The notes beneath the pieces were generated by a model. The model was given only the letters and a program-made list of their open reading frames with translations. It was not told where the DNA came from and ran no database searches. The position numbers and the translations under genes were made by a program. Positions 5,275-51,943 of a DNA stretch of 56,398 bases are shown here, one piece after another (position 1 is the stretch's first letter; every line of letters starts with the position of its first letter). Origin of the DNA: Actinomycetota bacterium. Lineage in GTDB: Bacteria; Actinomycetota; Actinomycetes; Actinomycetales; Kineosporiaceae. The stretch spans positions 1-56,398 of the forward strand of contig JAUPKQ010000120.1 in the NCBI GenBank assembly GCA_030837345.1, read 5' to 3'.

Positions 5275-6195
5275 TCAGCGGGAGGAACCCTCCGTCACCT
5301 TGATAGTGCCCTCAGCAACGATCGTAGCGGGGCCGGCGAGTTCGACGTGCTCCCCCGCGAGCCGTGAGTCCGACGGGACCACGACCCGGAGGCGGCCGCC
5401 GGGGACGTCGACCAGCCAGCGGTCGGGCGCTCCGGAACCGCCCCAGACCCGAGCGGCCAGCACGGCTGCGACGGCTCCCGTACCACAGGACCGGGTCTCA
5501 CCCACGCCCCGTTCGAACACCCTCATCGCCAGGTGCCCGACCTCCCGGTGCGGCAGAGGGACGACGATCTCCACGTTGGTCCCGTCCGGCGGGGAGGGGT
5601 CGACCATGGGCTGCGTCCGCAGGTCGGCCGCGGCCAGGCGATCGGTGTCCGGCAGCGCCACGACGACGTGGGGGTTGCCGACATCGATCGACAACCCCGG
5701 AAGGACCGAGGGGCCGCCGAAGATCGAGACCCTGGCGTCGGAACCCGTGGTGGCCGCGGGGCCACCGCCGACGACGCGCCAGGGACCCAGATCCGCCGCG
5801 AGGAGGTCGCCGTCCCGGCGGACGCGCTTGGCACCGGCCCGGGTTCCCACGGTGACCGTTCCACCGTCGGCCAGCTGGATCCATCCGAGGTGCTCAAGGT
5901 AGGCGACGAAGACCCGAAGTCCGTTGCCGCACATCTCGGCGATTGAACCGTCAGCGTTGCGGTAGTCCATGAACCACACGACGTCCGGTCCGAATGACCC
6001 CGCGACCTCGTCGACCGCGGCGACGGGGACGGCCCGGATCAGACCGTCGCCACCGATCCCGGCCCGCCGGTCGCACAGAGCCGAAACCTGGCTGGGTGAC
6101 GGATCAAACTCTCCCGAAGCGTCCGGCACGAGGACGAAATCGTTCTCGGTGCCGTGCCCTTTGGCGAAGCGGACGGCGGGCAGTTGAACGGTCAC
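5275..6195 (-). CDS. dapF: Diaminopimelate epimerase
   Basis: 306 residues from GTG at 6195, which gives the usual N-terminus TVQLPAVRFAKGHGTENDF. The enzyme interconverts LL- and meso-diaminopimelate using two cysteines as acid and base; both are present, Cys89 in MCGNGL and Cys237 in SCGTG. It feeds lysine and peptidoglycan synthesis together with dapA and dapB elsewhere in the window. The gene starts 10 nt after the stop of the LAL regulator gene. A TAGGCT box, whose TAG is that stop codon, lies 7 nt before the GTG and could be a private leaderless promoter. Confidence 0.96.
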   Translation of the reverse strand: MTVQLPAVRFAKGHGTENDFVLVPDASGEFDPSPSQVSALCDRRAGIGGDGLIRAVPVAAVDEVAGSFGPDVVWFMDYRNADGSIAEMCGNGLRVFVAYLEHLGWIQLADGGTVTVGTRAGAKRVRRDGDLLAADLGPWRVVGGGPAATTGSDARVSIFGGPSVLPGLSIDVGNPHVVVALPDTDRLAAADLRTQPMVDPSPPDGTNVEIVVPLPHREVGHLAMRVFERGVGETRSCGTGAVAAVLAARVWGGSGAPDRWLVDVPGGRLRVVVPSDSRLAGEHVELAGPATIVAEGTIKVTEGSSR

Positions 6196-6202
6196 CCGCC
6201 CA

Positions 6203-6208
6203 AGCCTA
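6203..6208 (-). promoter_or_regulatory. Candidate -10 box for dapF overlapping the upstream stop codon
   Basis: On the minus strand TAGGCT is followed by 7 nt and the dapF GTG. Its first three bases are the TAG stop of the LAL regulator gene. No -35 is evident, so this rests on the spacing pattern shared with several other genes here. Confidence 0.35.
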
Positions 6209-9200
6209 GCCAGCGTCCGCCGGACCGAGGAGACCGAGGCGATGAGCCACCGACACGGCCTCCGCACGACCGGAGGCACCCAGTTTGGCCATCAGGTTCG
6301 ACACGTGGACGCTCGCGGTCTTCTCGCTGATGGCGAGGCGGGTGCCGATACCTCTGTTGGTGAGTCCCTCGGCGACGAGGCAGATGACTTCCTCCTCGCG
6401 AGGCGTGAGAATCCGTTGACCGACAACACCACCGCCGAGATCGAGCCGGTGTCGTGCGGCCGTGGCGTCGATCGCCGCTCGCAGCCGGACGGCGCGGAGA
6501 CCCACCACCGTCCGGCGGGCGTCACGCAGCAGGGCGGTCGCCTCATCGCGCGGACGCCTCCCACCGGACGCCAGCAACGCCTCTGCCAGCCGCCACCGTG
6601 ATCGGGCCTCCTCGTAGACGTGACCGGTCCGAAAGGCGTCCACAGCCGCACGCCACGCCGCGACGTCCCCTGGCCCGGTCAGTCTCGTGGCCTCGGCCTC
6701 CGCACGCGCCAGCCAGGCCCGTCCCTCCGGACCCATGAACCTCATCTTGGTCGCCCCCGTCGCGGCGGCGCGCCGGGCCCGTTCCAGGAGCTCGGGACCC
6801 TCCTGGGATGCCTCCGGGAGGCGGACCCCGGAGCGAGCCGCATCGGCGAGCACCGCGATACCCAGGGCGGCCGTCCGGATAGCGGCGATCGCCAGGGGCC
6901 GCCCGATTCTCTCGAATGACGCGAAAGCCTTCCGGACGGCCTCGAGCGCCTCCTCGTGGCGTCCGAGCCAGGTCAAGGCGTCGGCCCACGGCGCGTAGAC
7001 GAGATGCCACATGATCGGATAGGCCTCGTCGCAGGCCTCCAGCGCCGCCGCGCGGTCGATGGCCGCCGAGGGGTCGCGGGCTGCGAGGACCGGCAGGAGA
7101 GGCACCATCATGAACAAGGACTCGCGGACGGGAAGGCGTGGACGATCCGTCGTCACCGTGCGCTCGACGTCCTCCCACTCCCCGGCGATCTCCAGCACCT
7201 GGGCGAGCAGGAGACGCGACTCGATGGCGAACAGGCAGCTCGCCAGCCCGGCGCGTTCTGCCCCGGCGAGCCCACGCTCCAGGTGGCGTCTCGACGTGGC
7301 GAGATCGCCGACGTCCAGGGCGAAGAGACCGAGGTAGAACGCCACCCGGAGCTCGATCTGGGGATCCCCGGCCTCCGCTCCCCGGCGGGCGGCCTCCTCG
7401 AGCCGGGCGGTGGCGGCCTCTGGACCGACGACCAGGGCGTCACCCTGGGCGAGGGTGATGAACAGGTCCGCCTCGGCCGCGACCATCCCGAGCTCCCATG
7501 CTTCGGCGAGGGCCTTCTCCACGAGATCACGGGTACGCAGGAGGTGACCGCGTCGGCAGTCCCAGAGGTCGCCCCGGCCGGTGGTGATCCTCGCCTCGAC
7601 GGTGGCGGCCCACACCCGTGACGACCGGGGTCCCTGCCCGTCGAGCAGGGCATAGACCAGGTGGACCTGCTCCAGCGCCGGATCGACCTGGTCGTCCTCC
7701 ACCAGGTAGGTCGCCAGGCAGCTTCGGGCGTGGGCCTCCAGTTCGACGTCGCCGGCTGTTCCGGCCGCCGTCGCGGCGGCCCGCCCCAAGGCGATGGCCC
7801 GCAGGAGTTCGCCCGACGCGGAGGCCGCCTTCGCCGCGTCGAGCTTCACCTGGATCACCTCTGTGCCGGCGGGACGCCGGTCCGCGGGAACGGACGGCCA
7901 GAGCCGCAGGACCCGGTCGTAGTGGGTGAGGGCCTCGGCGGGGGCGAGCCGTCGCCCGGCCTCACGGGCGGCACGCAGCCAGGCTGCGAGGGCCGAGGGG
8001 AGGTCGTGCGCCTCGACGCTGTGCCGGGCGAGGTCGGCGGCGGTCGCGGGGTCGGGATCGCTCGCCAGGAGGTCCGCGTACAACCGATGAAGCCGGGCAC
8101 GCTCTCCCGGCAGCAGATCGGTGTAGACGGCCTCCTGCACGAGCGCGTGGCGGAAGGCGAATCGGTCCGAACCGTCCGGCACGAGCACCTGGTGGGTGAC
8201 CGCGGACCGGAGGACCTCGTGAATGTCGCCCTCTGCCTCGCCGGGGGCTGCGTCGGAGGCACTCCCCCCGGCGAGCGCCAGGGCCTGACGCAGGAGGGTG
8301 TCGGAGACCCGGCGACCGGCGACGGCGGCGACCCGGGCGACGTTCTGGACCGGTTCGGGCAGCTGTTCCATCCGGGCGAGCAGGACGTCGGCGAGGGCCC
8401 ACGGGAGCGGGACGGACCCGTCGCCCGACGTCGAGACGAGCAGCTCTGCCGCGTAGAACGCATTGCCCTCGGAGCGGACGGCGATGTCCTGCACGACCTG
8501 TTCCGCGAGCTCACCACCATGCAGGGTGACGAGATACCTGCGCAGCTCGACCTCGTCGAACGGGCGGAGATCGAGGCGGGTCACCCGGGGCAGGCGGACC
8601 AGCTCCGCCAGCAGCCCTCGAAGGGGATGGCGCCGGTGGAGGTCGTCCGAACGATAGGTACCGACGATGAGCACCGGGTCGTCCCCGAGACGGGACAGCA
8701 GGAAACGCAGCAGATCACGGCTGGAGGCGTCGGCCCAGTGGAGATCCTCCAGGACGAGGAGCAGAGGGCCTGCCGCCTGGGCTGTCACCTTCAGCGCCGT
8801 CGCCACCGCGTCGTACAGGGCGAGACGCTGCGACGCTTCGTCCACCCCGGGCTGCCCGTCCGCCTGACCGGTGACCCGCGACAGGGAGGGGCGTTCTTGC
8901 GCGACCTTGCGCAAGGCCGCCGCGGCGGCGTGGTTCCCCGGCTCACCGGTGAGCCCGAGCAATGACGCCACGACCTCGGAGAACGGCAGGTACGGCAGGC
9001 CTCCGGCGCCGAGGTCGACGCAGCGACCGACGACGGTGAGAGCTCCCCCCTCGGTCGCCCGGGTTACGAACTCAGTGAGCAGGCGTGTCTTACCCACTCC
9101 GGCGTCCCCGCCGACGAGCACCCCGCAGCCACCGTCGGCCGTCGCTGTCAGGAACTCCTCCAGCCTCGACAGCTCCTGTGCCCTGCCGACGAACCCCGAC

Positions 9201-51255: not shown

Positions 51256-51345
51256 TCACCAGGTGAGCACTATCGGAACTTCCGCACCGAACGCACCGGA
51301 CGCACCTGGCAGAAGAGCAGCCACCTGGTCTTCGGCCACTCTCAC
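51256..51345 (-). CDS. Possible 29-residue ORF overlapping the cysteine-rich peptide gene
   Basis: A GTG overlaps the stop of the 55-residue peptide gene by 4 nt (GTGA), the same arrangement seen for several coupled genes in the window. The product MRVAEDQVAALLPGASGAFG... is hydrophobic and ends LTW. Third-position GC is poor, so it may be chance. No family recognised. Confidence 0.25.
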   Translation of the reverse strand: MRVAEDQVAALLPGASGAFGAEVPIVLTW

Positions 51346-51509
51346 CAGCACATGATGCATTCGCTGAGAGTGCACTGCCCGCAGGCGTCGCTCCTGCCGT
51401 ACGACTCGCCGTCGGAGCCGAAACACCCCCCGGCGTAGCTTCCCCGCATCAGTTCCCTGAGCTCGGCCAATATTTCGGAATCGCAGGTATGAGCCAGCTT
51501 CGTGGGCAT
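51342..51509 (-). CDS. 55-residue, six-cysteine peptide; possible lantibiotic-like precursor
   Basis: Starts at ATG 51509 with AAGGGAG 6 nt upstream, downstream of a near-consensus promoter. Most codons end in G or C, like genuine genes here. The N-terminal 23 residues (MPTKLAHTCDSEILAELREL...) look like a helical leader; after AGG at 26-28 come GCFG, then CGQC, then CTLSECIMCW at the end. Cysteines are at 9, 29, 43, 46, 51 and 54. CTLSEC plus I-x-C closely resembles the CTLTSECIC end of mersacidin, whose Thr-Glu-Cys region binds lipid II. The alternative is a CxxC-x4-CxxC metal-binding microprotein. No LanM, LanB/C, protease or transporter gene lies within the window. Confidence 0.6.
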   Translation of the reverse strand: MPTKLAHTCDSEILAELRELMRGSYAGGCFGSDGESYGRSDACGQCTLSECIMCW

Positions 51510-51561
51510 CAAAATCTCCCTTCCATCTCCGATCATGAGGAGCGTCGCCGGATTCCGTGGA

Positions 51562-51584
51562 GCGGTGTCGTTCTGCGACACCGC
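51562..51584 (-). promoter_or_regulatory. Hairpin in the 5' leader of the cysteine-rich peptide gene
   Basis: GCGGTGTCG and CGACACCGC form a perfect 9-bp stem with a 5-nt loop, 53-75 nt before the ATG. No U-tract follows. It may modulate mRNA stability or translation. Confidence 0.55.
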
Positions 51585-51628
51585 ACGGTACGACGCGCGG
51601 GGCAAGAGGATTCATAGGTTCAGCGCCC

Positions 51629-51639
51629 CTGACATCAGT
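51629..51639. promoter_or_regulatory. Operator-like site overlapping the peptide promoter start point
   Basis: CTGACATCAGT differs at one position from the core of the upstream palindrome (CTGACGTCAGT at 51719-51729). It lies right after the -10 box, where a repressor would block initiation. Confidence 0.45.
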
Positions 51640-51640
51640 C

Positions 51641-51670
51641 AACCTAGGAGGCATTTGTCCGGCCTGTCAA
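51641..51670 (-). promoter_or_regulatory. Near-consensus sigma-70 promoter of the peptide gene
   Basis: On the minus strand TTGACA (51670-51665) and TAGGTT (51646-51641) are separated by 18 bp. The transcript would start near 51634, giving a leader of about 125 nt. It is the strongest promoter-like match I found in the window. Confidence 0.72.
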
Positions 51671-51716
51671 TTGGGGATACAACGACGTAACAATCGGCGG
51701 ACACCACCGGAGGTCG

Positions 51717-51730
51717 TACTGACGTCAGTA
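51717..51730. promoter_or_regulatory. Perfect 14-bp palindrome upstream of the peptide promoter
   Basis: TACTGACGTCAGTA is fully self-complementary and lies 47-60 bp upstream of the -35 box. With the near-identical site at 51629-51639 it forms a pair 90 bp apart. Confidence 0.55.
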
Positions 51731-51892
51731 TCAAAGACGGCGGTCAAGAAAAACCGCACAAGCTCGCTTCAATCCCGCCCCGCCGGCGACTCGCGTTTGG
51801 ATCAGGCCTTCGACCTGCGTCAATTCCGCGGCGGAAAGAATCGACGACATTCGGACGCTCTGCGTGGCGAACCCGACACATCCGGTTGACAT
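51731..51892 (-). CDS. Possible 39-53-residue ORF upstream of the peptide promoter
   Basis: Minus strand, ending at 51731. From ATG 51850 (or in-frame ATG 51892) the frame reads MSSILSAAELTQVEGLIQTR, then VAGGAG. The ELTQVEG...AGG pattern looks like a double-glycine secretion leader, which is why I mention it. Neither ATG has a good ribosome binding site and third-position GC is only moderate. It may be spurious. Confidence 0.22.
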   Translation of the reverse strand: MSTGCVGFATQSVRMSSILSAAELTQVEGLIQTRVAGGAGLKRACAVFLDRRL

Positions 51893-51931: not shown

Positions 51932-51943
51932 TGACCTAGGTCA
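51932..51943. promoter_or_regulatory. 12-bp palindrome near the end of truB
   Basis: TGACCTAGGTCA is a perfect palindrome in a lower-GC stretch between truB and the small ORFs. No promoter is tied to it, so its role is unknown. Confidence 0.35.

Follow-up and report, generated by a model that had tools for sequence, protein, structure and literature searches.

The 55-codon gene on the minus strand at 51342-51509 of the window (the whole stretch of 56,398 nucleotides of actinobacterial DNA analysed here) probably encodes a second, orphan precursor belonging to a rare RiPP family that is matured by two radical-SAM/SPASM-type enzymes, most likely the pair encoded on contig C175 of the same genome, and not a lantibiotic. 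The preliminary description of this DNA had raised a RiPP precursor modified in trans as one of several possibilities, and this idea gained support from a paralogue in the same genome and from distant homologues, each of which directly precedes genes for two radical-SAM maturases.

The 55-codon gene

The open reading frame, MPTKLAHTCDSEILAELRELMRGSYAGGCFGSDGESYGRSDACGQCTLSECIMCW (55 codons and a stop), is intact, and the AAGGGAG ribosome binding site at 51516-51522 (minus strand), read directly from the sequence, lies 6 nt 5' of the ATG, confirming the earlier claim of a gene with a strong ribosome binding site. The GC-ending codons also claimed for it are present (GC by codon position 0.48/0.57/0.80), but the bias is weaker than in ribF and truB. 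A Glu/Leu-rich leader segment common to the relatives, SEILAELRELM, is encoded at 51447-51479 (minus strand), and the part encoding the conserved C-terminal core C43-x2-C46-T47-x3-C51-x2-C54-W55, CGQCTLSECIMCW, lies at 51345-51383 (minus strand). AlphaFold modelling of the peptide alone gave no confident fold (pLDDT 49), with a low-confidence helix at residues 11-20.

A paralogue beside two radical-SAM genes

A search of the whole 4.35-Mb genome found a paralogue with about 50% identity (E 2.5e-7) on contig C175. This peptide, MSAKVEELRNLVHANGMGGRFVEDQELNRAGKLDACGHCTLCNCIICW, is encoded at C175:12646-12792, directly upstream of two adjacent radical-SAM genes. The first, rSAM1 (C175:12977-14470, starting 184 bases after the precursor), encodes a PqqE-like radical-SAM/SPASM protein of 497 aa, and the second, rSAM2 (C175:14494-15855, starting 23 bases after rSAM1), a TIGR04463/CteB-like radical-SAM protein of 453 aa. 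The nearest models to rSAM1 were PqqE (60.5 bits, cut-off 381) and the mycofactocin maturase (51.4 bits, cut-off 265), scores that do not make it an equivalog of either, and its sole PDB match was PqqE 6c8v. For rSAM2 the nearest models were the TIGR04463, Clo7bot and geopeptide maturases, all far below their curated cut-offs: the TIGR04463 score was 185 bits for the C175 protein and 242 bits for its Rhizobium homologue, against a cut-off of 525. The ranthipeptide/SCIFF models also scored below threshold (TIGR03974, 32.6 bits, cut-off 425; PapB, 66 bits, cut-off 340). The best solved-structure relative of rSAM2 is the radical-SAM protein 5wgg/5why, which is CteB.

Both actinobacterial peptides contain GG; Peptidase_C39 is absent from the genome, and the peptides do not qualify as double-glycine (C39-processed) peptides. 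Divergently upstream of the C175 precursor is a gene for an EgtD-like histidine-specific methyltransferase (Methyltransf_33; locus L005 of G000:C175, 249-1337, minus strand), which was not seen beside the rhizobial pairs described below. An inverted repeat, GTCAATGAC-N8-GTCATTGAC, also lies upstream of this precursor (L005 1503-1528) and does not resemble the operator-like pair at the window gene.

Homologous loci on plasmids

Searches of plasmids by tblastn found both enzymes encoded side by side in Rhizobium sp. CB3171, Mesorhizobium sp. L-2-11 and Aminobacter sp. SS-2016, at about 51% and 44% identity to the C175 rSAM1 and rSAM2, respectively, with 10 and 12 invariant cysteines. A small open reading frame ending GCDSCTVCPCMICW stands directly before rSAM1 in each of the three loci, so the precursor-rSAM1-rSAM2 gene order is seen in two phyla. 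Homologous small open reading frames thus adjoin radical-SAM/SPASM genes at C175 and at three rhizobial plasmid loci. The 55-codon gene itself does not adjoin a maturase gene: its candidate maturases are on another contig, and the neighbouring truB/ribF region contains no maturase gene. When plasmids were searched with the precursors, the window peptide gave no match and the rhizobial precursor matched the three rhizobial plasmids only.

Other features of these plasmids were a third radical-SAM/SPASM gene near the pair in Rhizobium sp. CB3171 (L031 4533-5909, minus strand), with no counterpart seen next to the pair on either of the other plasmids, and genes for mutually related alpha/beta-hydrolase-like proteins that flank the pair in differing positions and orientations (L031 11602-12924, plus strand; L032 6005-7465, minus strand) and whose products are possibly a partner peptidase or thioesterase. 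A Paenibacillus peoriae plasmid carries a distant relative of rSAM1 (30% identity, split into two open reading frames), with two Cys-rich small open reading frames in tandem before it, one of which contains CGQC...CINC (L034, plus strand: small open reading frames at 5583-5789 and 5826-6023, split PqqE-like gene at 6040-7469); neither small open reading frame had an NCBIfam match.

A shared C-terminus

The Mesorhizobium and Aminobacter precursors are identical, leaving four distinct peptides overall, and alignment of the four showed that all end in C-x2-C-T-x3-C-x2-C-W-stop after a short, probably helical, Glu/Leu-rich stretch. Conservation is weak in the leader, where E16 and L20 align across the four peptides, and strong in the core; the resemblance takes in both. 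Of the six-Cys pattern noted in the preliminary description, four cysteines are conserved in the relatives, but the other two (C9 and C29) have no counterpart. The third core Cys of the relatives (C42 in the C175 peptide) is replaced by Ser49 in the 55-residue peptide, so the two precursors would yield different products.

With the window peptide left out, a profile was built from the other three precursors. Across the 4.35-Mb genome only the window gene (E 0.019) and the C175 gene reached E<=10, and when the profile was run locally against the window peptide and 2000 composition shuffles of it, the peptide outscored every shuffle. None of the precursors is covered by a model in Pfam or NCBIfam.

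Distribution

The family appears to be rare. Outside its own genome the window peptide was absent from 38 relatives; the precursor profile found, in 396 genomes of the order, only its own genome and one weak match inside an unrelated long frame; and rSAM1 was found only in its own genome among 297 genomes of the class and 396 of the phylum, in samples that overlap across order, class and phylum and by scans that would miss diverged precursors. Given the absences from the 38 relatives and the order, there is no record of selection on the window copy. Relatives of TIGR04463 occurred in 14 of 395 class genomes, none above the cut-off, and in the loci fetched around them a CW-type Cys-rich open reading frame was nearby only at C175. 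A single-sequence scan of the GTDB genome_contigs (84,980 species) had no match, nor did a search of viral contigs, and literature searches on TIGR04463 and on the core sequences came back empty. A DNA-pattern scan of the same GTDB contigs (84,980 species) for CGxCTLxxCxxCW, a pattern that would miss the rhizobial CDSCTV form, returned five matches, which were rejected as chance occurrences in unsuitable frames.

Proposed route and alternative explanations

Taken with the homology and gene order described above, the most probable reading is that the 55-codon gene would provide the C175 enzymes, in trans and from its own promoter, with a second substrate. The Glu/Leu-rich leader would dock the peptide, either on the enzyme pair or on the N-terminal extension of its PqqE-like member. 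Both radical-SAM enzymes would then act on the core C-x2-C-T-x3-C-x2-C-W, where bonds between Cys sulfur and nearby carbons are the most plausible modification, and a protease would finally free the product. Expression of the gene may be controlled separately by the local promoter and the operator-like pair. This reading draws on the paralogue and rhizobial loci, the held-out profile match, the intact frame, the ribosome binding site and the promoter-like element. Against it stand the distance of at least about 17 kb between the gene and the enzymes, which are on different contigs, the Ser49 substitution and extra cysteines, the failure to identify a leader peptidase or exporter in a genome that lacks C39 peptidase, and the absence of the peptide from the other genomes surveyed.

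Several of these same features would fit a copy of the C175 precursor that has decayed or lost its function and now lies stranded between truB and ribF without being modified: one core Cys has been lost, no enzymes are encoded next to it, and it is found in one genome only. Such decay is unlikely, however, for a 55-codon frame that is intact behind a good ribosome binding site, is served by a promoter-like element and two matching operator-like sites of its own, and has kept four core cysteines and the terminal Trp. The CxxC-x4-CxxC spacing would, judged from the sequence, also suit zinc or an Fe-S cluster, as in a small unmodified metal-binding peptide, but the relatives' genes directly precede radical-SAM maturases in the manner of RiPP precursors, the motif is at the extreme C-terminus and ends in Trp, and no confident fold was predicted, making a metal-binding role quite improbable.

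The mersacidin-like character suggested in the preliminary description did not hold up. The lipid II-binding motif is CTLTXEC (PMC7269505), to which the CTLSEC of the window peptide bears a resemblance but is one residue short, and the relatives read CTLCNC and CTVCPC, which is, as far as sequence can tell, a Cys chemistry and not a Ser/Thr dehydration pattern. The genome does encode RiPP enzymes of the kinds the earlier account proposed to look for, namely the C175 radical-SAM pair and a LanM on contig C103 (locus L009 of G000:C103, 8927-12429, minus strand; TIGR03897 628 bits, cut-off 304), the only LANC_like match in the genome, but this LanM has its own unrelated precursor immediately upstream. 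That precursor ends WVCTLTIECGTRVCACR, of the CTLTIEC type, its leader is unrelated to that of the 55-residue peptide, and the two peptides have no meaningful similarity (best BLAST E 7). The window gene thus neither adjoins a LanM gene nor shares a leader with a LanM substrate. Because the motif is short, the relatives have Cys at the middle Ser, where a dehydratable residue would be needed, and adjoin radical-SAM enzymes, and the LanM's own precursor is dissimilar, a mersacidin-type lanthipeptide modified by this LanM was rejected on LanM context, leader and motif, and we regard it as very improbable and the least likely of the alternatives. The C103 locus is itself a genuine CTLTxEC lanthipeptide locus, with a weak plantaricin-C-type match of its precursor and a divergent ABC transporter.

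Relation to known systems

The resemblances of the family to described systems are partial. Like the TIGR04463 ('rSAM_vs_C_rich') maturases, rSAM2, which scores best with that model, adjoins a Cys-rich small open reading frame, but it falls far below 525 bits, is paired with a PqqE-like second enzyme in both C175 and the rhizobia, and accompanies a precursor that has no model. Ranthipeptide systems (SCIFF/CteA-CteB, PapA-PapB, Clo7bot) share with it the structural relative 5wgg/5why, scores with the Clo7bot and PapB models and a Cys-rich core; rSAM2 is nevertheless below all cut-offs, and C-x2-C-T-x3-C-x2-C-W fits neither the SCIFF nor the PapB Cys/Asp pattern. PQQ and mycofactocin systems (PqqE, MftC) supply the best models for rSAM1, as well as its structural match 6c8v, and likewise have a conserved precursor C-terminus, but rSAM1 is far below their cut-offs, the core here is Cys-rich and a second maturase is present. 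Mersacidin/lacticin 3147-type lantibiotics share only the superficial CTL-x-EC-like tail, the 55-residue peptide having no LanM link, a motif one residue short and a different leader.

Systems in which several precursors share maturases are also known. In thuricin CD, a complex of TrnC and TrnD works on both precursors (PMC12093266), and two radical-SAM enzymes and two Cys-rich precursors are likewise found in one organism here, although sequence-level membership is not established for the present pair and the precursors are on different contigs. Many ProcA precursors of the prochlorosins are served by one shared maturase, ProcM (PMC10783134), a similar sharing of one maturase system, but with lanthipeptide chemistry and with more precursors than the two found here.

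It is possible, and we suggest it tentatively, that an undescribed RiPP class, defined by C-x2-C-T-x3-C-x2-C-W-stop and a dedicated PqqE-like/CteB-like pair, occurs in this actinobacterium and on rhizobial plasmids, and that the pair serves two separately encoded and regulated precursors here, yielding a two-component or Ser/Cys-variant product. What looked like an orphan lantibiotic can now be tested as a substrate of a defined enzyme pair, and the analysis has exposed a rare precursor family, unmodelled in Pfam and NCBIfam, that occurs in an actinobacterium and on plasmids of rhizobia. Should both precursors be modified by the C175 enzymes, this natural Ser-for-Cys variant would provide a direct test of the core Cys residues that the two radical-SAM enzymes each require, and genome mining restricted to enzyme-adjacent open reading frames would miss substrates.

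Control region and neighbourhood

The TTGACA-18-TAGGTT promoter of the preliminary description is present as a promoter-like element at 51641-51670 (minus strand, reading 51670-51641) and is the only TTGACA-N16-19-TANNNT match in the window, where 0.05 would be expected, but a stricter sigma-70 scan found none. Both operator-like sites described earlier also exist: ACTGATGTCAG at 51629-51639 (minus strand), directly downstream of the -10, and ACTGACGTCAG within the palindrome TACTGACGTCAGTA at 51717-51730, upstream of the -35. Elsewhere in the genome the operator 11-mer occurs as one palindromic and two single sites. In the two contigs inspected for ACTGAYGTCAG (C24 and C194) the site falls within coding frames, so a shared operator regulon is unsupported and was discarded, and the pair is, as far as checked in these two contigs, peculiar to the promoter of the peptide gene. 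The leader hairpin fared less well, for although a 9-bp inverted repeat that could form its stem exists at 51562-51584 (minus strand), its folding energy is not exceptional, and the leader RNA as a whole is no more stably folded than shuffled versions of it (z -0.85).

The claim that the gene interrupts a conserved truB-ribF neighbourhood is true of part of the relatives: truB was near ribF in 7 of 12 ribF loci, but was not found within the 1.5 kb fetched in the other five, which include the three closest relatives, and in two truB-less loci that were examined the region upstream of ribF is occupied by other genes. Upstream of the peptide gene in the window lie a 53-aa open reading frame (MSTGCVGFATQSVRMSSILSAAELTQVEGL..., 51731-51892, minus strand) with no Pfam match and, in the gap after the truB stop codon, the perfect palindrome TGACCTAGGTCA (51932-51943).
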